This document shows, one piece after another, positions 17,057 to 36,215 of a DNA stretch of 64,000 nt. Each line of letters begins with the position of its first letter. Position 1 is the stretch's first letter. The stretch spans positions 62,001 through 126,000 of the forward strand of contig NZ_DF967527.1 in assembly GCF_000971475.1 (NCBI RefSeq). Reading direction: 5' to 3'. Below the pieces are notes generated by a model. That model searched no databases. It saw only the letters and a list, made by a program, of their open reading frames with translations, and was not told the DNA's origin. A program made the position numbers and the translations under genes. The stretch comes from Sulfuricella sp. T08 (lineage in GTDB: Bacteria > Pseudomonadota > Gammaproteobacteria > Burkholderiales > Sulfuricellaceae).

Positions 17057-17299
17057 TTCGTAACCACCTGCCACCGCATAAGCGCCTTCAGCGTCAACGA
17101 CGGCAAGACCACCACACAGCAAACCGTGCAAGTACGGGTGTTCGTCGTCAACCACCAGCCACGTCTGCAAGCCAGCAACCACGTGTGCGACTTCACTGTC
17201 ACCGCACGCGCAAGCGACGGACGCAACACCACCACGCAAACCTTTACCCTGCGTGTCGTGGCGTTCGACACCAGTCCGCCGCTGCGGCCAGCTCGTTGA
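17057..17299 (+). pseudogene. Possible fragment of an Ig-like/cadherin-like repeat protein
   Basis: An open frame without a start codon reads FSVNDGKTTTQQTVQVRVFVV and later ASDGRNTTTQTFTLRVVAF, two imperfect copies of a DG-x-TTTQ-x-x-x-x-x-V pattern seen in bacterial Ig-like adhesin repeats. It is bounded by TAA at 17054 and TGA at 17297. It could be a fragment left by rearrangement or chance; the reverse strand is also partly open. Confidence 0.25.
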
Positions 17300-17403
17300 A
17301 CAGTGTCTGACGCGGCGTACCGGCTTTGGTCGCCGCGACGGCACGATACAGATAGACGGAACGTCTTTCTTCCAGCCAGCACTTCGAGTGCGTGTGATGT
17401 CAT
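17275..17403 (-). pseudogene. Frameshifted 5' remnant of a VIT/ferritin-like gene
   Basis: An ATG overlaps the patatin stop (ATGA) and begins MTSHALEVLA. The frame then fails, but removing one G from GTGCTGGCTGG near 17370 gives MTSHALEVLLEERRSVYL, followed by YRAVAATKAGTPRQTLFNELAAAAD. This resembles the N-terminal ferritin-like part of VIT1/CCC1-type proteins (E-x-R-S-x-YLYR, LF-x-EL). Resemblance stops near 17275, so the gene is both frameshifted and truncated. Confidence 0.45.
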
Positions 17404-20132
17404 GAATTGAGATTTGTCTGTTTGCGAAACTCTGCGCCTGCGTGTACCCGCAGGATACGGAATAGTCCCGCCCAGTCGTGGTTGGGTAGCTCCTGTCCAG
17501 CATTGTAATGGTTGCCGACCAGTTCCCGATAGGCATCGTCAAATACACGCGCCGCAAGGTGGTGGCCGAGCTTGCGGTAGCTCTCGAACTGCGCTTCGTC
17601 AAAGTCCTGGTCACCGGTGCTCTGGTGCGGAAAGCCGGGGTTGCCGGCGGCGTAGTTGAACACGTCCGAGGGGATGTCGCACGCCAGTGTGGGCTTGAGG
17701 TACAGCAGCTGAGCGTCAGGCGCGTCGGGATAGTGGATGCAGCCCACTGCCGCCGACCACAGGCTCAGGCCGCTGGCCGGGTCCGGGCGCAGCGGCGTGA
17801 CGTCGATGTCGATGCGCACGCCGAAATCGGTGTAGCACTTGCGCATGGCGTTGCCGAGATCGTCGAAGTTGAATTTTGCATCCTGTCCGGCGTCGATGGC
17901 GACGATGTAGTTGCAGCGCCGCCGCACCAGTTCGTAAATGCCAAGGTTCTCGAAATGTCCGCCGTCCGACAGGTAGACGAACGGCGTATCGCTGTCGGTG
18001 AGGCCGAACAGCTCGCTCAGCAGGTAGCGTCCGCCCAGTTTCGGCCCATAGGCGCGCCAGGCGCTGGGGTGACACGGATTGCCGCTCCAGTGGCCGAGGC
18101 GCACGTTGAACACCGTCATCAGCAGGCTGAGCGCGGGCGAGCTGTGATAGCCCATGTTGGGGCTCGCCGCCGCGCCAGAAATCGCCATCGCCGTGCCCAG
18201 AAAGGCACCGTGCGGACCGTGATATTCGGCGCTCGGGCGGTAGCCGCCCTGGCAATGCGCCGTACTGCTGGCGGTGGTTGCCAGGCTGAAGCCGCAATGG
18301 CTGGGGGTGAAGCTGAACGCCGCCGCCTTGCGCTGCTGCCAGGCCAGATCGCTGCCTTTGACTAGGTTGATAGCAGTATTGAAAATCGGATACGGGCGCT
18401 GTACCAGATCGGCCAGCGCCAGGTCATCAGCCGGGTCGAAGCCGGTAAACGGCTGCAGTTTGCGCCCGGGCTGACGCGAGGCGCCCAGATAGCAGCGCAC
18501 CAGCCGGTCGCGGTAAAAATAATACAGCGCAAACAGGTTGATATCGACGCGCCAGGACAGCAGCGTAGCGACCGCCAGACACGCCAGCGCCACCCCCAGC
18601 AGCAGCCAGCCGGATACCTGATTCATGGCGGCGAGGCAGTGATACGCATACTTCTGGATGCTGCTGTTGGCCGCCAGTGCGTTCACATCTACGCCGCTCA
18701 GCGCGTACTGCAGCAGCGCGCCAAGCAGGATCAGCAAGCCGCTGATGAATACCCACGGTGCGCTTTTCGCCAGCCATTCCTTCCACCACACGCTGCCGGA
18801 TTTGGCGGTACCCGGCCCGGCACCCAGCAGCAGTCCGGCCACGGTGGACGCCAGCCAGGCCGCGCCACCGCCATACGCCCAGTGGCTGGCCCACAGCACC
18901 AACGGTAGCGCGTAAATGGCGACCATAAACAGCGCCAGCCAGGCCAGCCCGATAATCAGCACCCAGCCGCCAAGACGGCTCCACCACTCGCGCATGACGT
19001 TGGAAAAATCGCGCCCCATGAAGCCGATGTGCGCCACCACCACCAGCGAAAAAATCTTCAGGATCAGCGGCGTGCCCAGCCCCACCGCCCACCACACCGC
19101 AGTCTCGGCGGGCAGATAGCGCAAGCCGTGCACCGCTGCATAAAACAGCAGTCCACCCAGCGCACCAGCCGCCAGCGCGCTGAGCAGCATCACCAGACTG
19201 CTGCGCAGTGGTCGACGCAGCAGTTCGCGCCGTTCTGCCTGGCCGAATGCCAGACTCAGCAGCCGGCCGTACAGCCATGGCAGCGTGTACAGTAGCGCGG
19301 CGGTTTTCATCCATTCCAGCGGCGGCGCGGTGAGCTGTGCGCCGAGCAGAAAAAAGCCGTAACTGAACAAGGCCGCGGCCAGCAGCGTCGGCAGCACGAT
19401 CAGCGTCAGCACCCAGCCTTGCTGACAGTACCAGCGCGGCGTCGCGGAGCTCACCAGATTGAACGAGGTCGCCACCACCGCGACCAGCAGACTCAGCCCG
19501 CCCAGCCCGAAGTAGACCGGGTGCAGCGCGTTGAGAGTATGAAATCCGCTCCACTCCAGCAGCGTGCCCAGCCACGGCAGCTGCAGCCCGGCCAACTGCG
19601 GCAGCGCGGCAATCAGCAGCCATGGCAGTAATAGCAGTGCCGCCATGCTCAGAATCAGCACGCTCAGATTGAGGTAGAGATTGCGCAGATAGGTCGCCAC
19701 TGCGTCCAGCGTATCGGACGACAGCAGGCCACCGCGTGGCGTCAGGTAATTGCTGTAGCTGCGCAGAAAGCGCACCGCCGTCAGCTCATCGCCGCCGCAG
19801 ACCAGCTGCGGTTCGAGTGCCGCCACGCTGCCATTGCCCTTGCGCCGGATCAACGCGGCCAGCCAGCCGCCGATATAGCCGCCGCCCGACACCGTGGACA
19901 GGTAATCGAAGCCGCGCAGCAGTTTGCGTTCGGCCAGTGCCTGAATTACGCCGAGATTGAAGGTGGCGCTGCGGATGCCGCCGCCGGAGAAGGCCAGGCC
20001 GATGCGCGGCGCGTCAGCAGGTGTGCCGTCCTGCACGCGCAACGCGGCCAGCACGGCGTGCTCGTGTTGCAGCATCGCCGCCAGAGTGAGGGCGGCGTTC
20101 GGGTCGGTTGGGTCAGGCTGGGGGGGTGACAT
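17400..20132 (-). CDS. Membrane-embedded patatin-like phospholipase
   Basis: 910 residues from ATG 20132, chosen for AAGGAG nine bases upstream. The oxyanion motif is GLAFSGGGIRSATFNLGVIQAL (residues 45-66) and the nucleophile elbow STVSGGGYIGGW gives Ser82. Late in the protein PFVYLSDGGHFENLGIYELVRR holds the catalytic Asp (DGG). Between them are some ten hydrophobic segments, so the hydrolase is split around or anchored by a membrane domain. It should cleave acyl esters of lipids; the substrate is unknown. It is the last intact gene of the leftward run. Confidence 0.85.
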   Translation of the reverse strand: MSPPQPDPTDPNAALTLAAMLQHEHAVLAALRVQDGTPADAPRIGLAFSGGGIRSATFNLGVIQALAERKLLRGFDYLSTVSGGGYIGGWLAALIRRKGNGSVAALEPQLVCGGDELTAVRFLRSYSNYLTPRGGLLSSDTLDAVATYLRNLYLNLSVLILSMAALLLLPWLLIAALPQLAGLQLPWLGTLLEWSGFHTLNALHPVYFGLGGLSLLVAVVATSFNLVSSATPRWYCQQGWVLTLIVLPTLLAAALFSYGFFLLGAQLTAPPLEWMKTAALLYTLPWLYGRLLSLAFGQAERRELLRRPLRSSLVMLLSALAAGALGGLLFYAAVHGLRYLPAETAVWWAVGLGTPLILKIFSLVVVAHIGFMGRDFSNVMREWWSRLGGWVLIIGLAWLALFMVAIYALPLVLWASHWAYGGGAAWLASTVAGLLLGAGPGTAKSGSVWWKEWLAKSAPWVFISGLLILLGALLQYALSGVDVNALAANSSIQKYAYHCLAAMNQVSGWLLLGVALACLAVATLLSWRVDINLFALYYFYRDRLVRCYLGASRQPGRKLQPFTGFDPADDLALADLVQRPYPIFNTAINLVKGSDLAWQQRKAAAFSFTPSHCGFSLATTASSTAHCQGGYRPSAEYHGPHGAFLGTAMAISGAAASPNMGYHSSPALSLLMTVFNVRLGHWSGNPCHPSAWRAYGPKLGGRYLLSELFGLTDSDTPFVYLSDGGHFENLGIYELVRRRCNYIVAIDAGQDAKFNFDDLGNAMRKCYTDFGVRIDIDVTPLRPDPASGLSLWSAAVGCIHYPDAPDAQLLYLKPTLACDIPSDVFNYAAGNPGFPHQSTGDQDFDEAQFESYRKLGHHLAARVFDDAYRELVGNHYNAGQELPNHDWAGLFRILRVHAGAEFRKQTNLNS

Positions 20133-20306
20133 GAACTGTGACTCCTTGAACAGAACAACTGCAAAGCGCGCCACAGAGATATCGGAGAACACAGAGATGA
20201 AGCGGGGTTGACCTGTTATCCCGGCTCATCTGAGGAGGGTATAAATTTACGCCAGGTACCGGCTTCTCCTCGGTGTTCTTAGTGCGCTCTGTTGAGGTTT
20301 CTAGGA

Positions 20307-21092
20307 TCATGCAACCTTGGGATACATGCGCCGGATGAAGCGCTTGTCGCCGGTGGATAGTCGGGTGTTATTGGCGGTGCCCACGCCGCCTTGCAGCAGT
20401 TCAGGCGGGAAACTGTAGAGCATGATGGACTTGGCGTCGAACTTGCTGGCGTTGAGCTGATCGAGCGAATATTTCTGGATGATGTTGTGGTCGATGTCCG
20501 CCTTGCTCCAGTTATTCGGTGGTCCGCTGAAATAATCGTACACCGCCTGCAGGTTCCATTTGACGCCGCTCTTGGGGTTTTGGTGCTCGTGAATAGCGCC
20601 CAGCGCATGGCCGAACTCGTGCACCACCACGCGGCGCCACTCTTCATCGCCGGTGCTGTCGCGCAACCAGCCGAAATTCATGGTGGGCTCGCTTTTCCTG
20701 AAATACGCGGTGTGCAGACTATCGGTGCCGATTGCCGACCAGGAACCGTCGTCGGCTTCGAACGACACGCGGATTTCGGCTCTGTTCTGGCTGGCGCTGA
20801 AATTGAAGCTGATGTTGGCGTAAGGTATCCACATCTCGGCGAACTGGCGCACCTTGGCTTTCTGCGTGGCGCTGCCGTCCATGAAATACACGCCGAGTTC
20901 GCGTCCGACGCGCCATTTCTTGCCCGTCAGCAGCGCCATTTTGGCAGGATGCATCGAGGCGCCCGCCAACGCGCGCGGCATTCTGGGCTGGTTGCCGTGG
21001 TATTCATCGATTGCCAGCGTGGCGGCGACGATTTTTTGCTCAATCGGGATGATGCGGTCGATGCACAGGTGTAGCTTGGTTTTTTTGCTCAT
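20307..21092 (-). CDS. Astacin-like (M12A) metzincin protease
   Basis: 261 residues from ATG 21092, supported by GAGGAG seven bases upstream; an upstream in-frame ATG at 21257 has no such site. The zinc motif is VVVHEFGHALGAIHEHQNP (His158, His162, His168), with the Met-turn in DAKSIMLYSFP. GVYFMDGSATQKAKVRQFAEMW matches the substrate-edge region of M12A. No signal peptide is visible, so export would need another route. It lies between patatin and a FecR-domain gene. Confidence 0.85.
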   Translation of the reverse strand: MSKKTKLHLCIDRIIPIEQKIVAATLAIDEYHGNQPRMPRALAGASMHPAKMALLTGKKWRVGRELGVYFMDGSATQKAKVRQFAEMWIPYANISFNFSASQNRAEIRVSFEADDGSWSAIGTDSLHTAYFRKSEPTMNFGWLRDSTGDEEWRRVVVHEFGHALGAIHEHQNPKSGVKWNLQAVYDYFSGPPNNWSKADIDHNIIQKYSLDQLNASKFDAKSIMLYSFPPELLQGGVGTANNTRLSTGDKRFIRRMYPKVA

Positions 21093-21319
21093 GATGCGCT
21101 CCTCAGTAGTGGCCTCAAATGGCCTGATTTTTTGCGATGTCCCAGCCTGCTGCGGCCGGTATTCCATCGTGATGGTGTTGAAATGCAGGCTCACCTGACC
21201 GGTGGGAGGAAACCCGCTGTCGTGTTCGGTTGCGGTGGTGGTCGTCGATTGAGTCATCGTCGATGCCGTCCAGTTCCAAAAAATTCAATTTTCATGAGTG
21301 TCTCCTGTGCCAAAGCGGC

Positions 21320-22129
21320 TTATTGCAACGAGTTGGGTTGCTGCGTGGGGGGCTCGGTCGGCCGGTGGCGCGGATACATGGGCAGACCGAAATCGAGATC
21401 GAAGCGGGGTGAGTCCCGCGCCCTGCATTTCGCTTCCAGCAGCACGCGGTCGAAAGAAAACTGTGCTGTGCCGCATTGTTCGCGGTCACTGTGAGTGACC
21501 TGCTGATCCTTGCAGCACCAGCCTGTGAAGGTATAATTTTTGCGCCAGCGCAACATCTCCATCAGTTCGCGTTCGCTCAGCTGGCGCGTGCGTGCCTCCC
21601 CCTGCAGGGTCATGATGTATTGCTGGGACACCAGAATGCGCGCCGATTCTGGGCGCACCACGGTGACGCTGCCCGAAAGTACGGTGATGCCGGTCTGCTG
21701 CGGCGTGACACGGATATTGATGCGGCTGTTGTTGATCGCGTCGAGCGCCGGACTGTCGATGCAGAACGGCTGTTTGTCGACGAACACCTGCCCGCTCAGT
21801 ATCTTCGCCAGAATGCAGAAACCCGACTGCAGGCGTTTGACGAGAAAGATCGGATCGGTGTTTTGATCCAGCTGAAACAGGCCGCCGTCGCTAAATTCAA
21901 TCAGCCCGCTGCTGGCGTTGCCGGTGGTGACGGTGTCTCCCACGTGTATCGCCTCGCCGCCCAAGGCGCGCGTGCCGTTGAGGAACACCTGACTACCGGC
22001 CACGCCGAGCGTGCCGATGCGCTCGTCCATTGCCGGTTCGCGCTGGCTGTTCGCGCCGCCTGCGTCGCCACCCAAGGCAAACAGCAGCCCCAGCATGGTG
22101 AACAATGATGTCGCGGGCACTGATCTCAT
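21320..22129 (-). CDS. Exported FecR-domain protein
   Basis: 269 residues from ATG 22129, which overlaps the upstream gene's stop (ATGA). A signal peptide (TSLFTMLGLLFALGGDAGGA) leads into a FecR-type region: GTLGVAGSQVFLNGTRALGGEAIHVGDTVTTGNASSGLIEFSDGGLFQL. The C-terminal part (LRWRKNYTFTGWCCKDQQ) is cysteine-rich and unassigned. FecR domains usually sense or relay signals to ECF sigma factors, but none is nearby, so the domain may serve a structural role. Confidence 0.75.
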   Translation of the reverse strand: MRSVPATSLFTMLGLLFALGGDAGGANSQREPAMDERIGTLGVAGSQVFLNGTRALGGEAIHVGDTVTTGNASSGLIEFSDGGLFQLDQNTDPIFLVKRLQSGFCILAKILSGQVFVDKQPFCIDSPALDAINNSRINIRVTPQQTGITVLSGSVTVVRPESARILVSQQYIMTLQGEARTRQLSERELMEMLRWRKNYTFTGWCCKDQQVTHSDREQCGTAQFSFDRVLLEAKCRARDSPRFDLDFGLPMYPRHRPTEPPTQQPNSLQ

Positions 22130-23055
22130 GGCGTTCCCCTCGTTGGCGCAGCTGCACTGCCTGCGAACAGTGCTTCGACTTGCCGGATCTGCGCGCTGCG
22201 CACGGCGGTGACGGGCAGCCACAGCACGCGTCTGGCGTGCGCATCCCACAGCACAAAATCGCGTTCGGTCTGGTTGAGCAGGAACAGCTTTTGAGCATCG
22301 CTGCCAGGCCAGGCTGTCGCTGTTTCGAGGCTGATGACCGGCAGGCGGATCTGGCGCTGCAACACGCCATAGAGCATCGGCAACAATACCGTATAGAGCA
22401 GCACAATTAGCACAAACGGCGCGCTCAATAGCGGCCGCCAGCGCCACGGCGCGGCTACGCGCCAGGCCAGTAGCAGGAGTCCCACAGCCTTGATCAGCAT
22501 CAGCAGGCTGTTGGCAAAAATGGCCTTGAGGCGGACGCTGTCGCCGCTCAGCAGCAGAGCGGTCAGGCTGCCCGCGGCGGCTTGACCCTGCACGAACAGC
22601 AGATTGGAGATTTGCAGCGGCGCATTCAGGCTCTGCGGGTCTTCGCTGCCCGCCAGTAGCAGCATCAGCAGCGCGGCGAACACCAGCGCGCGCGCCCGTC
22701 CAGATTGCCGCAGCTGCGCCAGACGCGCGTGCCAGAGCGATTGCGCCGCACGCAGGCGGCGACGCATGACATACATCAGCGGTGCCAGCACCAGTAGCAC
22801 CAGCAGCGCGACAAAGCCGACGCTGATGAGCAGATTGAGCAGGATTTCGCCGAGCAGTCCAAGCACGTCGATGAGAAAGCGGCCACCCTCCGCGACATAA
22901 CGCTCCTGACCGTAATTCACCAGTCCGGACAGCCCAAGCAGGTGCAGTTGCGCCGTGCTCAGCAGATAGCCGCAGGCATACAGAATCGCGCCGATGCCGG
23001 CCAGTGCGCCGGACAGCCAGCCAACGAAGAGTGCGATGCCTTTGCTCAGTTCCAT
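22126..23055 (-). CDS. Multi-pass membrane protein of unknown function
   Basis: 309 residues with about six hydrophobic segments (for example ALFVGWLSGALAGIGAILYACGY and VGFVALLVLLVLAPLMYVM). The C-terminal 60 residues form a soluble domain (FLLNQTERDFVLWDAHARRVLWLPVTAVRSAQIRQVEALF) that looks like a small sensor or beta domain. Not recognised as a named family. It overlaps the FecR gene by four bases and follows the nuclease gene by 27. Confidence 0.7.
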   Translation of the reverse strand: MELSKGIALFVGWLSGALAGIGAILYACGYLLSTAQLHLLGLSGLVNYGQERYVAEGGRFLIDVLGLLGEILLNLLISVGFVALLVLLVLAPLMYVMRRRLRAAQSLWHARLAQLRQSGRARALVFAALLMLLLAGSEDPQSLNAPLQISNLLFVQGQAAAGSLTALLLSGDSVRLKAIFANSLLMLIKAVGLLLLAWRVAAPWRWRPLLSAPFVLIVLLYTVLLPMLYGVLQRQIRLPVISLETATAWPGSDAQKLFLLNQTERDFVLWDAHARRVLWLPVTAVRSAQIRQVEALFAGSAAAPTRGTP

Positions 23056-23082
23056 AGATCGATTTTCCGTCGCATGCGCTAT

Positions 23083-23985
23083 TCAGATAAGCGTGATGTC
23101 CATATACAGCGGCGCATGGTCAGAGGCTTTGGGCTCGTTCTCGCCGACGCCGTCGAGCCGCTCTTCTGTGACTTTTTGAGCGCGCCAGGGCAGGCCGCGC
23201 CGCATCACGGCAGGGTGAGTTGCGTTGGCCTTGGCAAGCCCCGCTGACAGCAACAGATAGTCAAGCTGGCTGTAGGAATTGCCGCCAGAGTAGTAATGCG
23301 TCCAGCGCTCGGTCTCGGGCAAACGCGTCAGCACGTTGTTGAGGCCTTTGTGATCGAGGAGGGCGGTGAGGCTGGTCTTGCCTTCTGGATAGTCGTTGAA
23401 GTCGCCCAACACCACGAAATTTCCCTTGTAGGCCGACTTCTTCCAGCGTGAGTCGATGATCGACGCCACGCGCTCGGCCTGTTCCTGTCGCCGTGCGCGG
23501 GTGGCATCCCGGCCTTCCATCATGGATTTGAAGTGGTTGAGATAGAGGGTGAGCATCGTGCCTCCTACCAACACGTCCACCTCCAGGCAATCGCGCGAAA
23601 ACAGGAAGGCTGCGCCACCCTTGCTACGTTCCTCGCGGTGCGAGCGCAGCGCGGCGATGGGATGGCGTGACAGCACGGCGACGTCGATCTGGCGCGGGTC
23701 GAAGCTGTCGATCACCGCACGGTAGGCGTATTTCATGCCGCCGAGGTAAAACGAATTGAAGCGGTCCAGCACTGGCAGGCTTTCCACTTCCTGCAGGCAG
23801 ATCACGTCGGCGTTCACTGCGCGTATGGCTTTGGCGGTGATTTTTTTCGAGGCCTCATCCTGGATGCGGAATGCCAGGTCGTTGATGCTGAAGCCGTCGT
23901 CCTCGGTGGGCTGGATGCCGTCCTTGAAACGGTAGCGGGCGAACAGGTTTTCGACGTTGAAGGTGGCAAGGCGCAGAGTGGACAT
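23083..23985 (-). CDS. Endonuclease/exonuclease/phosphatase family protein
   Basis: 300 residues from ATG 23985 with GAGGAA nine bases upstream. Signature motifs are all present: RLATFNVENLF, VICLQEVESL, LYLNHFKS, VVLGDFNDYPEG and PKASDHAPLYMDITLI. The fold uses a divalent metal to cleave phosphodiesters or phosphomonoesters of nucleic acids, inositols or lipids. No signal peptide is seen. With patatin and oxidases alongside, a phospholipid or nucleotide target is possible, but specificity is not readable. Confidence 0.85.
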   Translation of the reverse strand: MSTLRLATFNVENLFARYRFKDGIQPTEDDGFSINDLAFRIQDEASKKITAKAIRAVNADVICLQEVESLPVLDRFNSFYLGGMKYAYRAVIDSFDPRQIDVAVLSRHPIAALRSHREERSKGGAAFLFSRDCLEVDVLVGGTMLTLYLNHFKSMMEGRDATRARRQEQAERVASIIDSRWKKSAYKGNFVVLGDFNDYPEGKTSLTALLDHKGLNNVLTRLPETERWTHYYSGGNSYSQLDYLLLSAGLAKANATHPAVMRRGLPWRAQKVTEERLDGVGENEPKASDHAPLYMDITLI

Positions 23986-24013
23986 GGTTGATTTCCTCAA
24001 GGGTTTTCAGAGA

Positions 24014-25507
24014 TTACGCATCATCTGTTCCGACGATGTAATGCAATGCGCGCAGACTGGGCAGAAAGAAATATGCCCCGCCGCGTACCGTGACAAACTG
24101 CGGCAGCCCGGTCACGCGCTGGCGTAAAGCACCATCGTGCGGCACGGTGAAAGCGCTGGTTACCGGGCAGCCTGGGATGGCTTGGCGATTGCCGAGAAGC
24201 GGGTCGCTCTCGCCGCTCAGGCCGGAAAACTTGGTGCTTGCTATCCATGCGTTCTGGATGAATTCAAACTGGCGCGCGAGGTTGGCGTTGAGGCAAATGA
24301 AGTGCAGTCCGCGCCTGGGATCATCCGGCGGAGCGGGCGCCAGCGCATCTTCCGGTTTCAGCTCGCTGCCATATTCGCGGCCGCGCCGCAGGATGCGATG
24401 AAAGCGCACGGAAGACATCAGGTCGTCGCGGAACCCTTGCGGGCCAAACCCCAGCAGGGTGATGAGTTTTTTCAGCAGGCTGGCCGGGCGCTCGGGGAAG
24501 TCGGCATTACGCGGGTTGGCGCGCCGCACATGCGCTCCGAACGGACAGCGAGCGCCCGTCGGATCGTGATCGAAGGTGAACTGGTTTTGGCTGATCTGTT
24601 CCGGGTCTGTTCCTGTCCCTGGAATGGGCTGCTGCTGAATCGGCACCAGTAGATCGCCCGCGCGCGTCCGCCCCACCATTGCCGCCGCCAATTGTTGCGC
24701 TTCAGTCGCATTGCCGCCGCGCTGCTGGTAGACGAATTGCCAGAACAGACGCACATCCTGCTCCAGTTGCCGCATCACGAGATACGTCCCGTTGCGACCG
24801 AGGTCTTTCTTCTCCGGAGCATCCAGCGCGGGCAGCAGATCCGCACTCGCGGTACCGGGATCGAGCACAGGCCGGTCGGTGATCTTGCCGTACTCATTGC
24901 GATAGCCCAGCAAAAATTCGCCGAGCGCGGCCAAGTTGCTGTAGTCATACTCGACATGGGCAGCTTGCTGCTGTTCCCAATCGAGCTGTGGCTGGCTGAT
25001 GCCGTCGGCGAAACCGAATGGCTCGACGCCGTCGAGATTTTCAGTCTTGAGCCAACGGGCTTCGCTGAACGCCTCCTTCCAGACAGCGCCGGTGCTGACT
25101 TGCACAAACGCATCGAAAGCATCCGGTTGGGCGAAGAACATGATCACCAGGTGCACCTCGTTGGCGGGCCCGCCCCATTCCCAATGTTCTGGTGCATTGA
25201 TGCCCACATCCCCCAGTTCGCGCGCACGGTTTTCCTGCGTCATGCCGCCGCGAAACGCGTGCGAGAAGCCTGCGATCACCGGCTCGGCAACGCCGAGCGC
25301 GCGCAGGCCCGGCGCAGTGAACGCGACCTGCAGCGCCGTGGTCGGCGGCGGGGTCATCAGCATTGCGTTGCTGACCGGTGCCGTGCGCAGCCAGTCGCGG
25401 GCGGCAGCGGGGTTTTTGACTCGCACCAGCGCGTAGGTGGCTTGCGTCATGTGCTTGTAGCCAAAGCGCAGCAAACCTTGCACGTCAGCGTAATCGACTG
25501 GGTTCAT
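24014..25507 (-). CDS. Dyp-type heme peroxidase
   Basis: 497 residues from ATG 25507, overlapping the preceding gene's stop. Family marks: FGFADGISQPQL (GxxDG with the catalytic Asp), the proximal His in FGAHVRRANPRN, and the distal Arg region FHRILRRGREYG. C-terminal GLHFICLNANLARQFEFIQNAWI and RGGAYFFLPSL also fit. The enzyme oxidises substrates with H2O2. No Tat or Sec signal is present and no encapsulin gene is adjacent. It is longer than compact bacterial forms and nearer the long class. Confidence 0.92.
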   Translation of the reverse strand: MNPVDYADVQGLLRFGYKHMTQATYALVRVKNPAAARDWLRTAPVSNAMLMTPPPTTALQVAFTAPGLRALGVAEPVIAGFSHAFRGGMTQENRARELGDVGINAPEHWEWGGPANEVHLVIMFFAQPDAFDAFVQVSTGAVWKEAFSEARWLKTENLDGVEPFGFADGISQPQLDWEQQQAAHVEYDYSNLAALGEFLLGYRNEYGKITDRPVLDPGTASADLLPALDAPEKKDLGRNGTYLVMRQLEQDVRLFWQFVYQQRGGNATEAQQLAAAMVGRTRAGDLLVPIQQQPIPGTGTDPEQISQNQFTFDHDPTGARCPFGAHVRRANPRNADFPERPASLLKKLITLLGFGPQGFRDDLMSSVRFHRILRRGREYGSELKPEDALAPAPPDDPRRGLHFICLNANLARQFEFIQNAWIASTKFSGLSGESDPLLGNRQAIPGCPVTSAFTVPHDGALRQRVTGLPQFVTVRGGAYFFLPSLRALHYIVGTDDA

Positions 25508-26805: not shown

Positions 26806-26811
26806 CGCAGT

Positions 26812-28050
26812 TTACTCATCGAAGCGCTCGTCACCATTGGGCTCGTAGTGCGGCACCGCGTTTACGGTATGGCGCAGCCTGGACAACTCGAAATACATGC
26901 GCTGCCGGGCGCGGCTTTGATTGCCCAGCGGACGATGCTCGGCGATGGTATGCCACGGGTTGTAGGAAAGTTTTTTGGCGAATGCCATTTGCTTCGGGGA
27001 ATCGAATGTTTGTCTGGGCAGACGCAGCGTCGCCACTGCCACGCGCGGCGACAATTTTTCCGGCCACAGCACCCCATTGTTTTCGATCGGCATCAGGAAT
27101 GGATCGGTTTGCAGTTGCAGGCGGATGTCGAATTCAACGTCGCCTTTGCTCAGCGCTGCGATCATCGCGTCGCGCAGGTAGTCGTCGGGCGGGCGCAGCG
27201 GCAGCCGCGGGATCGGCGTGCGCTGCTTCGTCTTTGGCCAGACCGAATATTGCATCGCCTGGCCTTCACCCAGGAGATACGGCACGCAACTGAAATAGGG
27301 TGCTTCGAACGGGCTGCTCTGCGTCTTGATGAACAGCGACTGCATGATGAGATCCAGCACGTGCGGGCGCTTGAAGTTGAGGAAATGGAATATCGACGCG
27401 TTCTTCAGGCTCCAGGTTTGCAAGTGCGCGTTGGCCCGGGTGTCCTGCGTGACGAAGGTCGGCGTGGAGACGCCGAACATATCCAGCGTGTGCCGCTCCT
27501 CATCCATCAGCTTCGCACCCGGCACGCCCATGAGCTTGATGCTGATGCTCATGAAGCCGACATCGTCGATGTCCGGCGTGATGTAAGGCCCCGGCCCGGA
27601 GAAACGCACCCAGGCGGCAAAGCTTTGCGGCCTGGCGTAAATGCCGTGGCGGAATTGCGGCGGGAGAGGGTCATGAACGATAAACTCGCCGCGCACAATG
27701 CCGTGCGTCTTGGTGTTGCCGCCACGTTCCATTCCACCGGGCTTCCACAGTTTTTTCATCTGTTCTTCGAAGGTGGAAATGATCGAATCGAGATACGCGG
27801 CTTCATCGGGCAGTGTTTTTTCCTCGGCGAGTTGCAAGCCTTCATCGTGGCGCTGCCAGTTAATCCAGGCCGTGACCAGGCGCGCCAGTGAGTCGCGCAG
27901 CAGTGCATCGAACGGTGGGCGCAGCCAGGGATCGATGCGCCGCTCCAGATGCAACAGGAAGGTGGACGTATCGGAGAGCCAGTTCAGCAACGCCGAGTCG
28001 GTATCTGCGCGCGGAACCGGACGACTGGCATTTGAGTTTTCGCTGGGCAT
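26812..28050 (-). CDS. Catalase-like heme protein
   Basis: 412 residues from ATG 28050 with AAAGGA upstream. THGIVRGEFIVHDPLPPQFRHGIYARPQSFAAWVRFSG matches the catalase N-terminal barrel around the distal His (KTHG), and DDVGFMSISIKLMGV the following strand. The last part, NPWHTIAEHRPLGNQSRARQRMYFELSRLRH, stands where the proximal Tyr/Arg of heme would be. It lacks the long N-terminal arm and C-terminal domain of true catalases. Related short catalase-like proteins act on organic or fatty-acid hydroperoxides, which would suit the neighbouring patatin; this is inference. Confidence 0.8.
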   Translation of the reverse strand: MPSENSNASRPVPRADTDSALLNWLSDTSTFLLHLERRIDPWLRPPFDALLRDSLARLVTAWINWQRHDEGLQLAEEKTLPDEAAYLDSIISTFEEQMKKLWKPGGMERGGNTKTHGIVRGEFIVHDPLPPQFRHGIYARPQSFAAWVRFSGPGPYITPDIDDVGFMSISIKLMGVPGAKLMDEERHTLDMFGVSTPTFVTQDTRANAHLQTWSLKNASIFHFLNFKRPHVLDLIMQSLFIKTQSSPFEAPYFSCVPYLLGEGQAMQYSVWPKTKQRTPIPRLPLRPPDDYLRDAMIAALSKGDVEFDIRLQLQTDPFLMPIENNGVLWPEKLSPRVAVATLRLPRQTFDSPKQMAFAKKLSYNPWHTIAEHRPLGNQSRARQRMYFELSRLRHTVNAVPHYEPNGDERFDE

Positions 28051-28066
28051 GCGATGTCCTTTCGGC

Positions 28067-29665
28067 TTAGGGCGCGACAGGGTCGGGCAGGCAGGCACGC
28101 AGTTGCTCGAAACGCCGCGCGAGCAGGGCTTCGGGTTGGCCGTTCTGGGCGCGGATGCGCAGGCGTACGTCTTCAAGCAGTGCCGCCATGGCGGGCGAGT
28201 GTGTCCAGGTTTCGGTGTCGATGCCGCGCGCAGCCAGAATGCTGGGCGGCGGCATGGGGGATTTGCCGCGCCGTGTTTCGGCGATGTGCCACATGCTCAG
28301 GCGATAATAAATGCGTTCGGCGCAATGATCGAGACGGGCACTGACGGCAGCGTCGTCGCCGTGCAAAAAATTCGGCGGAAAGTTCGCTGTGCTGTCATGG
28401 CATAAGCCACACTGGGTGCGGAACAGGGCGTGCGCGCCGCTGATCTGGGAGGCGGCTTCGGTGCGCGCGATCGGCAGTCTGAGCGGCGCTATTTTGCGTG
28501 CCATGCCAAGCTCGGCTTGCAGGGCATGCAACAGTGACAGGCTGAACGGACGCGCGCCCAGTTCGCCACGTGCACGCAAGCGTTCCAGCGCGGCACTCAA
28601 ATCGCGCTGCCTCAGCTGTTTGAGCGTCGATTGTTTAACGACGGCAGCGTCTAGCATGCCGGCCAGTCCGACGATAAAAGCGGTTTTGTCCGGCGCTTTC
28701 CAGATTTCCAGCGGTGGGCGCGGCAACAGCGGGTCGTTCGCGGCATCCGGCATTGCGGCCAGCGGGTCGCGGTTGGGCAGATCAGGATTGGGGATGGGCA
28801 GCCCCTGCGGCCATCGGGTTTTCCAGTTGAGATCCAGCGTCGGTAACGCGTTGGCGGCGGGCAGACTGCCGCTGCGGGCGTAATCCAGCGCTGCGGCAAA
28901 CGCTTCCATGCGACAGCGGTCGCCTGTTTCGCCCTCGCCGCAGGCCTGTTGCCACAGCGTCTGCCAGACCGAAAATAAATTGGCGCGTTCGGTGGCTGCG
29001 TCGATGAAATAGGCGATGTCAGTGCCGGAGAGCTTGACGCCGTAAAAGTCGCGTCGCGTCGCGCGCAAGCGGCGGGCGATTTCTGGGTTGGCCGGGGTTT
29101 CGTCCCACAGCGGGCGGGCAAATATCGGTGCGGCGTTCTGGTGGCAGGCGAGGCACAAATTGCGCCGCGCGTAGAAAACCTGCGGCGTCTTGCCCGGCGC
29201 GTAATCACGCACCACCTGGAATTCGAAGCGCCCGGCGGTATCGTTGTAGCTGATGACTTCGATGACCTCGCCCTTTTCGTGGAAGCCGAGGAACAGCCGG
29301 TCTTGCAGCGGGGCGACCCCGGGTTTGTTGAGGCCGTCGGCGGCGGCAACCACGCGCGGAAATCGAAAGAAATCCGGTGCCCCAGCGTTTTTTTGCAGCG
29401 AGCGACCGAGCGGGATCAGCGTGGTCTTGAGCGTGGGCATGCCGCCCGGGTCGGGCTGCATTTGCGCCTGGATTATTTGCGCCAGACGCGAGTAGGGATA
29501 GGGCACCGGCGCGTTGCCGATGAGCTGATCAAATCGCGATCGCCCGAGCGGAGGTAGATCGGGTTGCGCCGGAGCAGGCGGCTGCGCCGGATGACTCCAT
29601 GCTGGGCTTAGCGCCAGGCAAATGGCAAGCATAATCAGGCAGGAGCGGCGGCGCGCATCGGGCAT
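28067..29665 (-). CDS. Exported diheme cytochrome c-like protein
   Basis: 532 residues from ATG 29665 (TGATG overlap with the gene upstream). A signal peptide (SCLIMLAICLALSPAWSHP) and two heme c motifs: LCLACHQNAAPIFARPLWDE near residue 170 and RTQCGLCHDST near 425. The CHQNA-x-x-F pattern is seen in large periplasmic cytochromes of unknown function. The middle region is unassigned. Heme attachment places it in the periplasm, on the opposite side of the membrane from the Dyp and catalase-like proteins as predicted. Confidence 0.8.
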   Translation of the reverse strand: MPDARRRSCLIMLAICLALSPAWSHPAQPPAPAQPDLPPLGRSRFDQLIGNAPVPYPYSRLAQIIQAQMQPDPGGMPTLKTTLIPLGRSLQKNAGAPDFFRFPRVVAAADGLNKPGVAPLQDRLFLGFHEKGEVIEVISYNDTAGRFEFQVVRDYAPGKTPQVFYARRNLCLACHQNAAPIFARPLWDETPANPEIARRLRATRRDFYGVKLSGTDIAYFIDAATERANLFSVWQTLWQQACGEGETGDRCRMEAFAAALDYARSGSLPAANALPTLDLNWKTRWPQGLPIPNPDLPNRDPLAAMPDAANDPLLPRPPLEIWKAPDKTAFIVGLAGMLDAAVVKQSTLKQLRQRDLSAALERLRARGELGARPFSLSLLHALQAELGMARKIAPLRLPIARTEAASQISGAHALFRTQCGLCHDSTANFPPNFLHGDDAAVSARLDHCAERIYYRLSMWHIAETRRGKSPMPPPSILAARGIDTETWTHSPAMAALLEDVRLRIRAQNGQPEALLARRFEQLRACLPDPVAP

Positions 29666-30024: not shown

Positions 30025-30034
30025 GGCAATGTCC

Positions 30035-31326: not shown

Positions 31327-31327
31327 T

Positions 31328-32617
31328 CTAGCCTCCGAGCGCCTGGAGAATTCGGGCAGCTTTGAGATGCTGCTGTCCGTTGTGATCAGACGGTTTCAAC
31401 TGGTGGGCAGCCGCACCATGCGACGGTATTTCGAATTCGTAAACCAGTGCGGTGCAAATCATGTCACTGGAATAGGGCAGTGCCGAGAACTTTGCGGGCA
31501 GAGCGGTGCCGCCATGGCCAACCCAAAGCTTGGCTTCGTCCATGAGCGGCTTCACCCCGCTGGCGACGATAGGCTCTGCAGTAAATACAAAAGCGATGAC
31601 GCGAAACAAGCCAGCATCCTTGCCCAGCAAGGCTTTCAGATATGCCGCCAGATTGAAGGAAGTGAGGCTGACCGGACTCACCTTGATTTTCCAGCGTTGT
31701 TCAGCCGGGAGCGGTGTGGCATCGGGGTTGATCCGCTCAAGCTGGGTCAACATGGCAAATCCGCCCGGCACGGAATAGTAGCCGGGGCTGGAATAGCCGG
31801 CGCTGCCGATCGCGCGTTCCATCCGGGCCGCCACGCTGGCCAAGGTCGATGTGGCAGGCGCGTTGCCCACCACCAGCTCGCGCGGAATCGTCTGGTGGGT
31901 TGAAGCGTCCGGCGGCGGCCAGAACGGCGGCAGGGGTGCTGCATCCGGCTTGCTGCCAGCGGCCGAGTCGCTTGGCGAGTCATCAAGGCTGGCTTTCCAG
32001 GCCGCGGCGGGTCGCACATCCATGGTCTCGGGCTTGGTGCATTTTTTACCCTGGACCGCGTAGCTCACCGTGTCCGTTCGAATCGGGCAGGTGCCGAAAG
32101 CCGTGCCGAATGGCACCACACCCTTGATTACGCTGAGGATGCTATTGCCGCCATCCAGTACTTCGATGATGAATTCAGCATCGCTCACCGCGGCGCTGGC
32201 GACCGGCGTTTCTACTTCCAGCGCCCCGGATCCTGACCTGGTTTTTACCCACAACGCGCCCTTGTCGAGACGGAGGATGCGCGTGCTGGCTTTATCTTTT
32301 TCCCAGCGCGAGAGGATCATGAAACGGGTTCGGTAATCCAGTGCCACGCGAACGCCATCGCGAAATTGGATGAGCGCGCGACTGTCGGGTCCAGTGCTTA
32401 ATACGTCGCCCTCATAAAGAGCCAGTGCGCCTTTGCCACGCAAGCGCTCTTCGATGCCGTCGCTGCGCGTCACCAGCAGCGTACCGATTGCATTTTTAGC
32501 CTCGCCAACAATGGTGCTTGCCGCGGCTACAGCGGCGGTCAGTGCCAGAATGAGCAAAAGCAACGCCTTGCCGATATGGTGACCGTGCCTAATTATTCCA
32601 GATCCAATCACCATCAT
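31328..32617 (-). CDS. Second exported FecR-domain protein
   Basis: 429 residues with a signal segment (KALLLLILALTAAVAAAST). The FecR-like part covers GTLLVTRSDGIEERLRGKGALALYEGDVLSTGPDSRALIQFRDGVRVAL, then a beta-rich run. A proline-rich linker follows and the C-terminal 180 residues are unassigned. No sigma factor gene is adjacent. Its start overlaps the stop of the beta-propeller gene. Confidence 0.78.
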   Translation of the reverse strand: MMVIGSGIIRHGHHIGKALLLLILALTAAVAAASTIVGEAKNAIGTLLVTRSDGIEERLRGKGALALYEGDVLSTGPDSRALIQFRDGVRVALDYRTRFMILSRWEKDKASTRILRLDKGALWVKTRSGSGALEVETPVASAAVSDAEFIIEVLDGGNSILSVIKGVVPFGTAFGTCPIRTDTVSYAVQGKKCTKPETMDVRPAAAWKASLDDSPSDSAAGSKPDAAPLPPFWPPPDASTHQTIPRELVVGNAPATSTLASVAARMERAIGSAGYSSPGYYSVPGGFAMLTQLERINPDATPLPAEQRWKIKVSPVSLTSFNLAAYLKALLGKDAGLFRVIAFVFTAEPIVASGVKPLMDEAKLWVGHGGTALPAKFSALPYSSDMICTALVYEFEIPSHGAAAHQLKPSDHNGQQHLKAARILQALGG

Positions 32618-33609
32618 CGCGACGCCACCACCCGGATCGGCTTTTTACCCAAAGGAACCGTGGCAATCAGAGCATTGCTTCCGGTATCGATTACGCGTAG
32701 ATCGTTGGAGACTTCATGCCCTACATAAAGACGTGTGCCCTCGGCATTCGCCCAAATGCCGTTAGGCTTTTCACCCGCGGCAAGCCTTGCGACCACACGC
32801 AAATTGCTTAACTCGGTATTGACCACCGCGATCTGATTGGCGCCTGAAAGTGTGACGTAAGCATAGAGTCCGTTCATTCCCCTATAGGCGAATGCGATTT
32901 GCTGGGGGTTCGCACCTACATCGAGGCTGGCAAGCTTGGTCTGCGTGGCAGGATCAATGATGTAGATATCTTTGCTGCCAGAGTTTGCTCCCCATATGCG
33001 TCCGTCCGGGCCCAAGGTCAGAAAGTGCGGGCTCTCTCCCACCGGGATCGTCTTGATGACTTTCAAGCTTGCGGTATCCACCACGGCCACGGCCCGGTCC
33101 CCCTGGTTGCTGACATAGGCAAACTTTCCGTCATGGGAAAAAGCCAGACCGGTAGGCCCATGTCCGACCGCGATCGTGCCGACCACGCGATAAGTGGCGG
33201 TATCGACAATGGACACGGTGTTTTCGCCGATATTGGCAACCCACGCCTGGCGATTGTCGTTGGTGAGCGCCACCACGTGGCAGCGTTTGCCCGTGTAGAT
33301 GGAAGCAATGGTTTCCAGCCCGCGCGTATCGATGACCGAGAGCCGGCCAGACGCCAGGTTAGTCGCGTATAAGCGGGTGCCATCGCGCGATAGCGCGAGG
33401 TCATGGGTCGAAGTATTTTTTGGATCAATCAGGGCGATCTGCTTAAAACTGGCCGCGTCGATCACCGACACCGAATTCGAGCTCTCGTTCGCGACATAAA
33501 TGCGCGCTGTTGGCGGCGTCTGATCGACCGTCAAGCGACTTTTAAGCTGCTCCATCTCGGCGCAGCCCGACAGGATTAACGCAAGAACCAGGAGTCGAGG
33601 CGTGCTCAT
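32614..33609 (-). CDS. YncE-like beta-propeller lipoprotein
   Basis: 331 residues from ATG 33609 (GAGG nine bases upstream; the ATG at 33615 is the alternative). Lipobox LALILSGCAEM. At least six repeats of the YVTN type: ARIYVANESSNSVSVIDAASFK, QAWVANIGENTVSIVDTATYR, FAYVSNQGDRAVAVVDTASLK, and so on. Seven-bladed propellers of this type are periplasmic and often sit beside c-type cytochromes or quinoprotein maturation genes. Confidence 0.88.
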   Translation of the reverse strand: MSTPRLLVLALILSGCAEMEQLKSRLTVDQTPPTARIYVANESSNSVSVIDAASFKQIALIDPKNTSTHDLALSRDGTRLYATNLASGRLSVIDTRGLETIASIYTGKRCHVVALTNDNRQAWVANIGENTVSIVDTATYRVVGTIAVGHGPTGLAFSHDGKFAYVSNQGDRAVAVVDTASLKVIKTIPVGESPHFLTLGPDGRIWGANSGSKDIYIIDPATQTKLASLDVGANPQQIAFAYRGMNGLYAYVTLSGANQIAVVNTELSNLRVVARLAAGEKPNGIWANAEGTRLYVGHEVSNDLRVIDTGSNALIATVPLGKKPIRVVASR

Positions 33610-33620
33610 CGGCATGTGCC

Positions 33621-36215
33621 TCAGAGAGTCGCCAGAAAGGCGATCAGCGCCTTTTTATCGGCGGGTGACAGGTCTTCGCCGAAGCGGTGGCCGTCGTTTT
33701 CGATTTCAGCGCTGCACGACGCATAGACTTGCCACAGTGCGGGGGTGCGGGCGCGTGCTTGCTTCACCACCTCGACCAGCTGGCCTGGATCGGAAACGAT
33801 GGCTTTGCCGATGCCCTGCATTTCTGTGGCAAGCTGTTTCGCTTCGGCGGCGGGCAGCACCTTGGCCAACCGGGCTTCGAGTTCGGCGGGCTTGAGCCTG
33901 GCGCGCACCAGATCGACGATGAAGTCCTTGTGGTGGAAGTTGCCGACGTTGCCCGCCGTGGCACCGGCAGGCACCCGCACGGTGAAGCCGATCAGGCGTT
34001 TTTCTTCCTTGCCGTCGAAGATGCGCGGGCCGATGTCGAGCACGATGTCCTCGTCGACTTTGGTCGCCTTGGGGATGCGTTGCGCCGGGTTCAACAAGTC
34101 CTGCATAGCCGCGACATAGAGCTTGAAACGGCCCTCGACCGAGGGGTCGTATGGCCAGCAGGCCGGCTGCTTGTCCTTTGCCAGCGGCGGGTTGCCGGGT
34201 TTGCTCGTATCGACGTAACTGGAACGGTACAGCTCGTAGGCATTGGCCTTGTCGCCGCCCCAGCCGCACAGCTCCGGGCCGACCGAGTTGTTGTGCAGGA
34301 AGGGCGCGTGCGCCCACAGGTTCAAGAGCGATACGTTGCGGTAATAGCCGCGCCCACCGTCGTGCGGTTCGAGGAGGCCGGAGACGGTCTTGCGCGCGTG
34401 GTAATCTTCGTTGGCAAACTGCTCCCAGACGTGGCCGCGCATGTGGTTGGAATGCAGCGAACGGCAGCGATAGGTGCCGACTTCGGTGACCGGCGTCGGC
34501 ACGTCGTTACCCAGCCAGTCGGCGCGCAGGCCGGTCTTGCTGTCGATGGCGCGGAAGTCCACCACTTCGAACGGCGGCTTGCTGCTGGAATGGCAGCGAG
34601 CGCAGTTGGCGACGAAGACCTGCTGTCCGCGCGACACCGCGTCCTTGCCGAAGTTTGTTTCCAGATCGCGCACCAGGTCGGCCTGGCCGTATGCGGTCTG
34701 GCGCTGGTTCGCGCGCGCCTCGGTGAGATCCTTCGCCTGGCCTTCGGGAGCGGTCAAAAAGAAATCAAGAATGTTGTGCACCCGGTCTTCCACTGCGCGG
34801 AAGTTTGGGCAGTCGCGGCGGCACTGGCCGATGTCGAACGGCGTCTGGCCGAAGTTGCGCGCTTGCGGGTCGAGCTGGCGCAGGTCGGTGAGGTGGTTGA
34901 CCCAGCACTGCTCGGCGCATGAGCCGATGTTGAAGTACACGCGCTGGATCGCGCCAAGTGCGCCGATCGAGTCGCCGCCGTCCTTGAGGATGTGGTGAAC
35001 GGTCTCGGTCTGGATACTTTTTTCCCAGCATTTGCCGGGCTTGCCGGGCTCGCACCAGCAGGTGGATTCCTTGGCGCCCGTCGGGCAGGCTGCCGCCTTG
35101 CGCCAGCGGTTGACTTTTTCGCCTGCAAACGTGGGGCGTTGTGCGATGTTGATGAGCGCGTTGATGGTGCCCGCGTTGTTCACCTGGTCGTTGGGGATCG
35201 CCGAAGTGTCGGAAGTGCCGGGACGCGCATGGGAAAAAATCTGCCACAGCAGGTCATCGTGCGGCATCCCCGAAACCAGGATTTCGGAGACGCGAATATA
35301 CTGGTTGCCGACCAGGCCGGAGAGGTTTTCCCACTTCGGGTGTTCGGGGTCGAGCGGTGGCCTGGCCGGGTTGAAGGCAACATGGCATGAAGCGCACGCG
35401 GTGCCGATGAGGAAGGGCGGTTCGATCGAGGCGTCGGCGAGTTTGCGCAGCTTGAAGTCAGCGCGGGAGGAGTCGCTGGACAGTTTGTGGTCGTAGCCCT
35501 GCCAGGTACCGAGGCTGCCGTTAAGTTTTTTCCAGGCCACCGGGTCGAAGCGCGGGTTGGGGAATTTGCGGAAGCCGAGCGCGCCGGTGGAGGTTCCGAA
35601 AGCGAGATTGCAGCTGTCCTCGCGGCCATTGCGGTGGCCTGCGGGGTCGCTGGCGGCAGCACTGGCATCCTTGAAGTCGCATGCCGGGTCACGGTAGCCG
35701 GGTTTGCCGACGAACTTCAGCAGGGTCTGGTCGCCGGGGCACCAGTCGAAGCCATAGGTTACTTCGTAACTGCTGGCCGGGCAGCCAACCGAACCCGGCG
35801 TGCAGCAGTCGGGGTCGTTGATCAAGCCCCAGGTTTTGAAACGCGTGTTGCGCTGGTCGCCGCGCAGTACGCCGTACCAGTCGATCAGCGCGGTGATGCG
35901 CTGCTGGAAGGTATAGGTGTGAAAACGCGCATTGCCTGCGGTCGCCTTGAACCAGATTTCGCGCCCGGCGCGGGCGGACGGCGAGAGTCCCTTTTCGGCG
36001 GTGTGGAAAGCGGCGTCATTGTACGGCACCGCCGCATCAGGCATGGCGGTAGTGTCCGGCAGCGCGACCGGGTGCGGCACGGCAGCGCCCGGTGTGGGCT
36101 GGTCCGACGGCAGCGTGGCACGCGCCTCGTTGGCAGGCTGGGCAAACCAGAGCGTCGCCCCGACGACGGCAACGCTACAGATGGCTATCCAGCGGACTGA
36201 TTTTGATTTTTTCAT
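33621..36215 (-). CDS. Large diheme cytochrome c, RoxA-like
   Basis: 864 residues from ATG 36215 (GAGGG upstream). A membrane or signal helix near residues 8-25. Heme motifs CASCH (residues 274-278) and CARCH (538-542). The segment after the first heme, FNPARPPLDPEHPKWENLSGLVGNQY, resembles the RoxA/RoxB rubber oxygenase family, as does YRCRSLHSNHMRGHVWEQF and a distant LWAHAPFLHNNS. RoxA enzymes are periplasmic or secreted dioxygenases cleaving polyisoprene; relatives are uncharacterised. Unusually many non-heme cysteines (residues 137-202, 377-470) suggest disulfides. First gene of the leftward run. Confidence 0.7.
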   Translation of the reverse strand: MKKSKSVRWIAICSVAVVGATLWFAQPANEARATLPSDQPTPGAAVPHPVALPDTTAMPDAAVPYNDAAFHTAEKGLSPSARAGREIWFKATAGNARFHTYTFQQRITALIDWYGVLRGDQRNTRFKTWGLINDPDCCTPGSVGCPASSYEVTYGFDWCPGDQTLLKFVGKPGYRDPACDFKDASAAASDPAGHRNGREDSCNLAFGTSTGALGFRKFPNPRFDPVAWKKLNGSLGTWQGYDHKLSSDSSRADFKLRKLADASIEPPFLIGTACASCHVAFNPARPPLDPEHPKWENLSGLVGNQYIRVSEILVSGMPHDDLLWQIFSHARPGTSDTSAIPNDQVNNAGTINALINIAQRPTFAGEKVNRWRKAAACPTGAKESTCWCEPGKPGKCWEKSIQTETVHHILKDGGDSIGALGAIQRVYFNIGSCAEQCWVNHLTDLRQLDPQARNFGQTPFDIGQCRRDCPNFRAVEDRVHNILDFFLTAPEGQAKDLTEARANQRQTAYGQADLVRDLETNFGKDAVSRGQQVFVANCARCHSSSKPPFEVVDFRAIDSKTGLRADWLGNDVPTPVTEVGTYRCRSLHSNHMRGHVWEQFANEDYHARKTVSGLLEPHDGGRGYYRNVSLLNLWAHAPFLHNNSVGPELCGWGGDKANAYELYRSSYVDTSKPGNPPLAKDKQPACWPYDPSVEGRFKLYVAAMQDLLNPAQRIPKATKVDEDIVLDIGPRIFDGKEEKRLIGFTVRVPAGATAGNVGNFHHKDFIVDLVRARLKPAELEARLAKVLPAAEAKQLATEMQGIGKAIVSDPGQLVEVVKQARARTPALWQVYASCSAEIENDGHRFGEDLSPADKKALIAFLATL

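Follow-up and report, generated by a model that had tools for sequence, protein, structure and literature searches.

Cytochromes P450 and catalase-like proteins are two folds that carry out allene oxide synthase and hydroperoxide lyase chemistry on lipid hydroperoxides. In fungi, linoleate diol and allene oxide synthases are reportedly fusions of a dioxygenase with a P450 that acts on the dioxygenase's hydroperoxide. To our knowledge, most bacteria have no assigned oxylipin enzymes; oxylipins have reportedly been described as signals in Pseudomonas aeruginosa. Here, a stretch of 64 kb from the 3.42 Mb genome of Sulfuricella sp. T08 (the window) was analyzed, which contains a leftward run of 15 genes. 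Embedded in this composite run is a heme module, the core (block 2), that is real and conserved and has apparently not been described; it consists of a catalase-like protein, a 433-residue protein (u433), and a DyP peroxidase. It is preceded by a second conserved group of genes, block 1, which begins with a RoxA-like diheme cytochrome. No paper describing either block was found in the open-licence PMC literature.

Several described systems resemble parts of this locus. For plants and corals, one account (PMC5617202) describes P450 and catalase-like proteins as filling one and the same role on lipid hydroperoxides, and catalase-lipoxygenase and catalase-heme dioxygenase fusions are reported in another (PMC11719350). 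Analogous to these coral and cyanobacterial oxylipin enzymes, whose catalase-like heme component is described in the same sources as the partner of a lipid-oxygenating enzyme, separate or fused, the window encodes a catalase-like protein with a partner; the partner is DyP plus u433 and not a lipoxygenase. PMC4496055 describes RoxA as a rubber oxidase and the diheme relatives PA2077 and PA2078 of P. aeruginosa as enzymes that oxygenate oleate. As in the oleate-diol synthase FadCcp of that organism, two-heme proteins of the RoxA-like group occur as a pair in the window and an LHN-type motif is present in the RoxA-like protein, but the window proteins score far below the cut-offs of NF040606, RoxB, and RoxC, and the sections seen of PMC4496055 tell of no catalase-like, u433, or DyP partner. 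The catalase-like protein is 33.6% identical (E = 5e-35) to y4iL-like catalases (cd08152) from the NGR234 plasmid, where catalase-like, diheme peroxidase, and patatin genes also lie close to each other; on pNGR234a (L016, 8110-15030) the y4iL-type gene adjoins an unknown protein, a diheme peroxidase (NF040606, 491 bits), and a patatin. In contrast to the window protein, y4iL retains the distal His, and the NGR234 stretch examined has no u433 or DyP match. Proteins of the y4iL type also occur fused to LodA (PMC4417212). The P450-u433-DyP frames of relatives of the core (see below) would resemble the fungal fusions in coupling an oxygenase to a P450 and differ in their frame composition, DyP not being an animal-type peroxidase.

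The core is conserved well beyond Sulfuricella. A first search of 150 relatives turned up u433 in four genomes in addition to its own, with a DyP gene adjoining it in each. The conserved C-terminal domain of u433 was then scanned against 84,980 species genomes, which gave 265 relatives; the counts below use the best 80 of these 265. In 80/80 loci, u433 is followed by DyP at a distance of no more than 1.5 kb or shares a frame with it; these loci span Alphaproteobacteria, Betaproteobacteria, Verrucomicrobiota, and one record named as a planctomycete. DyP also adjoins u433 in all 15 of 15 further loci from plasmids and other genomes. Twelve of the 80 loci are of the window type, with a catalase-like gene before u433 in 11; the contig of the twelfth (L025) ends within u433. 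The other 68 are of a P450 type. Here a P450 precedes u433 in 66, as a single P450-u433-DyP frame that follows a class III cyclase-like gene in 59 (rhizobia and kin, within L031-L098), as a separate frame in five, and as a single frame without the cyclase-like gene in two; the remaining two loci have no P450. The two partners never occur together (0/80), and three loci have neither. Among the 15 further loci, seven have the P450 (L007, L008, L010, L012, L013, L014, L147), six the catalase-like gene (L009, L015, L017, L111, L145, L146), two neither (L011, L148), and none both, the partner gene lying behind DyP rather than before u433 in L010, L014, L015, L145, and L146. The P450 and DyP profiles were made wholly from sequences outside the 80 loci; those for u433, the lipoprotein, RoxA-like, GMC, patatin, and cyclase were built partly from loci later counted, and 4 of the 11 catalase-like loci contributed to the catalase-like profile. 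A Guanylate_cyc Pfam match was confirmed in L041 only, the other cyclase-like rows being assigned by profile or BLAST, and the cyclase profile seed L008 has no cyclase domain by Pfam. S8 peptidase and MBL-fold genes lie downstream of P450-u433-DyP in some rhizobial loci.

Searched singly, the catalase-like protein has no Pfam match; a profile of its family does match catalases, and the best solved match of the family is the coral allene oxide synthase 1u5u (E = 1.4e-7). In a hidden Markov model (HMM) alignment, the distal His of catalase is replaced by Asn and the distal Asn by Ser in 12/12 window-type rows, and the proximal Arg and Tyr are retained in 17/17 rows. The variable H/Q of a KT[H/Q]G motif was at one point taken for the distal His; this is wrong, as the HMM alignment places that residue four positions earlier, at an invariant Asn. 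Of 70 P450s, 66 have Pro in place of the oxygen-activating acid of the acid-alcohol pair. The strongest hint to the chemistry of the core is that P450 and catalase-like protein replace each other in a single slot, because the chemistry of both folds is to rearrange or split lipid hydroperoxides, next to an enzyme that makes these (PMC11719350, PMC5617202).

For u433, neither Pfam nor NCBIfam has a family. Its predicted fold is a tandem dimeric alpha+beta barrel (ABM/SchA-CurD-like), and on this model u433 would be a membrane-held double barrel; it differs from ABM/SchA-CurD-like proteins such as WhiE-ORFI and Abx(+)O in that a hydrophobic helix separates its repeats and DyP accompanies it. A phage origin of u433 is without support, since a single-protein search of IMG/VR gave no relative. 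The DyP protein is divergent: it scores below the Pfam cut-offs and at 72.5 bits against NCBIfam TIGR01413 (cut-off 100.5), yet it matches solved DyP-type peroxidases, the best at 6e-45. Residues D169, H327, R375, and R378 are conserved in 77/77 rows, and we take their roles to be those of the GxxDG Asp, the proximal His, and the distal Arg.

Sampling 369 genomes across the class yielded the u433 gene in six, its own included; within the genus, the window's DyP is confined to its own genome out of 12. When 288 genomes from the phylum to which G515 (the Spartobacteria record with locus L022) belongs were scanned, the u433 profile matched G515 alone, which indicates that the module is rare there and no trait of the phylum. 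The core of Verrucomicrobia is 57-80% identical to that of the window (the lowest value comes from a cut piece), and the RoxA-like and calycin-like genes that precede it, sometimes with a patatin, are 24-40% identical. A tree of DyP was made from a choice of 37 rows, leaving out L020, L029, and L030, whose DyP stretch is cut or split. The window and Sulfuriferula multivorans, its nearest relative carrying the core, group among Verrucomicrobiota in nine rows (support 97/94), with 94/83 at the fork joining this pair to five verrucomicrobial rows and 100/98 for a ten-row group in which an Opitutales row is outermost. Loci L145 and L146, from the window's own class, fall outside the verrucomicrobial group, and L011, L050, and L057 cluster together. 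Transfer of the core between phyla is the simplest reading of these sequences; the verrucomicrobial rows are metagenome assemblies, and S. multivorans is a named strain. The tree has a midpoint root and weak deep forks, so it does not fix how often P450 and catalase-like protein were exchanged.

Block 1 comprises the RoxA-like cytochrome, a beta-propeller, FecR1, a small membrane protein, a calycin-like lipoprotein, and the second diheme protein. This gene order recurs without the core in L149, from another family of the same order, with 39-73% identity for the common genes; there, block 1 is followed by two NF040606-type diheme peroxidases and then a patatin, and the core of the window occupies the place of these two peroxidases. 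L150, L152, L158, and L163 retain RoxA-like, lipoprotein, and second diheme. The RoxA-like protein is 84% identical in S. multivorans, 53-65% in five genomes from other families of the order, and ∼27-30% over most of its length in verrucomicrobial relatives. Its heme motifs CASCH and CARCH together with APFLHNNSV give it the two CxxCH and (P/F)LHN of the RoxA/MauG/FadCcp superfamily; among six RoxA-like rows, those of the window and L022 have LHN, and those of L023, L027, L030, and L149 do not. PF21419 reaches 16.9 bits on it (cut-off 26.7). NF040606, whose sole match in 14 control genomes was to that of Thermus composti, gives two weak matches elsewhere in the window's own genome, none above cut-off. 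The second diheme protein is 83% identical in S. multivorans and occurs in 7/100 relatives, its own genome included, with no match in plasmids. Neither it nor the lipoprotein has a family in NCBIfam or Pfam, and the small membrane protein has two NCBIfam matches only, far below the cut-offs.

The first-pass annotation of this DNA had proposed, as a candidate, an undescribed system of 15 one-strand genes with mostly tight gaps or ATGA overlaps, closed by a strong terminator at 16971-17005. The layout was borne out: the 15 leftward frames were confirmed with the same boundaries from 36215 down to 17400, gaps are ≤62 bases at 13/14 junctions with several ATGA overlaps, and a stem with a T tail lies at 17009-16976. 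This stem is among the two longest in the terminator scan, the other sitting within the patatin gene. Overall, that scan gave 21 stems against 20.4 by chance and a promoter scan of the run 4 sites against a mean of 4.4 in shuffles, no excess, and a single transcript is therefore not established; the metzincin-patatin junction is not tight and could have a promoter of its own. Gene labels also held up, by domain scores, motif, or solved-structure matches, for patatin, metzincin, FecR1, endonuclease/phosphatase, and DyP. The label of amylase remnant is correct, since the 119-residue relic corresponds to residues 67-163 and 648-678 of the 680-residue amylase that S. multivorans carries intact at this position; this indicates an internal deletion, and we infer that the relic is non-functional. 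As for the proposed system, its candidate status stands for the two blocks, whose order is conserved elsewhere beyond chance, and falls for the 15 genes as a unit. The run is a composite of blocks: in the 39 kb examined of S. multivorans, eight of its genes go unmatched (propeller, FecR1, small membrane protein, endonuclease/phosphatase, second membrane protein, FecR2, metzincin, and patatin), and the second membrane protein is found in its own genome only (0/99 other relatives). The genes that S. multivorans does retain are RoxA-like, lipoprotein, amylase, second diheme, a TPR protein, and the core. Behind DyP in that genome (L024, 12290-20633), a DUF6603 protein and two large Pfam-less proteins replace the accessory genes of the window.

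Features of the run in window coordinates, in the order of reading on the reverse strand; the last column gives the distance in bases to the next gene, with overlaps negative.
Feature	Coordinates	Strand	Remarks	Distance
Transposase-like gene, presumably IS256/mutator type	36870..38084	+	divergent from RoxA-like gene start; would fit local mobility
RoxA-like diheme c-type cytochrome, 864 aa	33621..36215	-	signal peptide by eye; 2 CxxCH; MauG-type motif APFLHNNSV	5
YVTN/YncE-type beta-propeller lipoprotein	32614..33615	-	73% identical in L149, same place	-4 (ATGA)
FecR-domain protein 1	31328..32617	-	PF04773, 53.9 bits; 58% in L149	1
Small membrane protein, 141 aa	30901..31326	-	no Pfam match; 60% in L149, same place	-4
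Lipoprotein, 289 aa	30035..30904	-	family with predicted calycin-like (lipocalin/FABP-type) barrel	10
Amylase relic, 119 aa	29665..30024	-	internal deletion	stop/start overlap, TGATG
Second diheme c-type protein	28067..29665	-	CLACH, CGLCH, no LHN; signal peptide by eye	∼13-16 (start-dependent)
Catalase-like (y4iL/allene-oxide-synthase-type) heme protein, core gene 1	26812..28050	-		6
u433, core gene 2	25504..26805	-	two predicted ABM/SchA-like barrel domains; long hydrophobic helix aa 203-244	-4
DyP-type peroxidase, core gene 3	24014..25507	-	no signal peptide by eye	28
Endonuclease/exonuclease/phosphatase-fold protein, accessory	23083..23985	-	PF19580, PF03372; 61 bits	27
Second (orphan) membrane protein, 309 aa, accessory	22126..23055	-	no Pfam match	-4
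FecR-like protein 2, accessory	21320..22129	-	18.2 bits, below Pfam cut-off 24	62
Metzincin-type metalloprotease, accessory	20307..21257	-	HEFGHALGAIHEH; HExxHxxGxxH present	at least 114
Patatin/cPLA2-like membrane phospholipase	17400..20192	-	VSGGG and DGG motifs, no canonical GxSxG; 28.8 bits (cut-off 27.7)
Stretch from terminator to patatin stop	17010..17400		resembles remnants of other genes by eye
Intrinsic terminator-like stem	16976..17009	-	14 pairs and T tail, ∼400 bases past patatin stop

Genes linked to lipid chemistry lie near several relatives of the core. Large animal-type heme peroxidases, a family that includes lipid dioxygenases, are found near it in L030 and L146. On two plasmids, oleate hydratase or 3-hydroxyacyl-CoA dehydrogenase genes adjoin the core, and on pSCLO_2 a TetR-type gene stands beside catalase-like/u433/DyP. 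Other neighbors include S8 peptidase, CHAT, phospholipase D, and MBL genes near some relatives. L146 (11216-15414) has an animal-type heme peroxidase of 1047 aa, a second catalase-like protein whose start looks lipoprotein-like by eye, and a calycin-like gene, followed by u433-DyP-catalase-like. A Paracoccus yeei plasmid (L110, 7037-11513) carries a RoxA-like diheme, a catalase-like, and an animal-type heme peroxidase gene in a row, with no u433 or DyP match in that stretch.

From the company of genes and the active-site residues we infer an oxylipin-type substrate and chemistry: the core and its partners would form a mobile bacterial pathway that oxygenates lipids and converts lipid hydroperoxides, a reading to which we give about even chances. 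The patatin-like lipase would free unsaturated fatty acids or another lipid, and the RoxA-like and second diheme proteins, presumably periplasmic members of the MauG/RoxA/FadCcp superfamily, would oxygenate the double bonds; the oxygenation of oleate by diheme relatives, as far as it is described in PMC4496055, makes this part plausible. The calycin-like lipoprotein may carry the hydrophobic product, and both such a carrier and a patatin fit a lipid substrate. At the cytoplasmic membrane, u433 would anchor DyP, which may reduce or activate peroxide, and the catalase-like protein, which may turn a lipid hydroperoxide into an epoxide, allene oxide, aldehyde, or diol. The heme protein that rearranges or splits hydroperoxides would thus be catalase-like in the window and a P450 in most relatives seen. 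The direction of the pathway may be signal making, lipid use, or the disarming of lipid peroxides. The first-pass annotation had offered a lipid or isoprenoid oxidation module and an envelope attack/defence module; the former is the better of the two and gains from the P450/catalase-like exchange, the distal-site residues, the calycin-like fold, and the genes for animal-type heme peroxidase, oleate hydratase, and hydroxyacyl-CoA dehydrogenase that adjoin certain relatives.

A number of observations weigh against the oxylipin-type pathway. True catalases follow 1u5u closely as matches of the catalase-like family (1.9e-6 versus 1.4e-7), His67 of the coral allene oxide synthase aligns with Asn and is not kept, and 4 of the 70 P450s retain the acid. 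The chemistry of both DyP and P450 is broad. Four loci (L011, L050, L057, and L148) have u433-DyP without a P450 or catalase-like neighbor within the examined stretch, and most of the 68 P450-type loci are from Mesorhizobium and kin and hence not independent. Patatin is present in 3/12 and a GMC oxidoreductase in 4/12 window-type loci, several of whose contigs are short, and the patatin is among the genes without a match in the S. multivorans stretch examined. No lipoxygenase or animal-type peroxidase was recognized in the run. The RoxA-like protein reaches 14.7 bits with the RoxB and RoxC models (cut-off 900), the RoxA model is not among the matches, and NF040606 is likewise far below its cut-off; the likeness of the RoxA-like protein to PA2077 is drawn from the published description.

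The Rox scores also count against the breakdown of polyisoprenoids or other hydrocarbons, in which the RoxA-like protein would cleave an isoprenoid outside the cell and the core would oxidize imported fragments. The two CxxCH and the MauG-type motif suit this proposal, as do RoxA-like genes in 9/12 window-type loci, but no transporter or beta-oxidation gene was recognized in the run, and the patatin and calycin-like genes (the latter in 10/12 window-type loci, once on the other strand) suit lipids equally or better; we consider it quite improbable. Simple detoxification, with the core only shielding the membrane from hydroperoxides of abiotic or host origin, is unlikely, though less so. A peroxidase and a catalase-like protein together, and the TetR-type gene on pSCLO_2, would agree with it, and PA2078/PA2077 are explained by their authors partly as hydroperoxide control (PMC4496055). 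Against this stand the replacement of the catalase distal residues in every window-type row and the linkage to oxygenase-type and lipase genes, which points to a pathway generating its own hydroperoxide.

Antagonism or defence, with lipase, protease, and oxidants directed at rivals or phages, is the least probable of the explanations weighed. The metzincin and patatin of the run and the S8 peptidase, CHAT, phospholipase D, and MBL neighbors of some relatives are what could be expected, yet PADLOC gave 0 matches for the 10 of 15 proteins scanned, the core proteins appear by eye to have no export signal, and no immunity-like gene was recognized, so this part of the first-pass annotation finds little support. 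Chance co-orientation of unrelated genes is nearly as improbable for the run at large and is refuted for both blocks: the six-gene order of block 1 is identical in L149, and the core order is found in 11 window-type loci from two phyla. The 114-base gap before the patatin in the window would agree with chance; elsewhere, the patatin is placed behind block 1 in L149 and L150 and precedes block 2 in three verrucomicrobial loci, in the order patatin-RoxA-like-calycin-core. Chance is possible for the accessory genes, since linkage of endonuclease/phosphatase, second membrane protein (which has no family in NCBIfam or Pfam), and FecR2 was not seen in the loci examined, and the metzincin is linked once, as a 29% relative on the other strand beside a RoxA-like gene in L030.

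Within the oxylipin-type reading, a bolder proposal, which we put forward only tentatively, is that u433-DyP is a new membrane-bound lipid oxygenase unit, in which the ABM-type barrel and DyP make lipid hydroperoxides or hand them over to an exchangeable catalase-like or P450 finisher. If the oxylipin-type reading as a whole is right, it would reveal inside the bacteria the interchange of P450 and catalase-like proteins in one role that PMC5617202 describes for plants and corals. The u433 family, still without a name, would gain a function, and one conserved, horizontally moving module would explain many annotations of "catalase family," "Dyp-type peroxidase," and "hypothetical" proteins. On the bolder proposal, bacteria would possess a widespread, unnoticed oxylipin system that passes between phyla and that, in many rhizobia, stands behind a class III cyclase-like gene.

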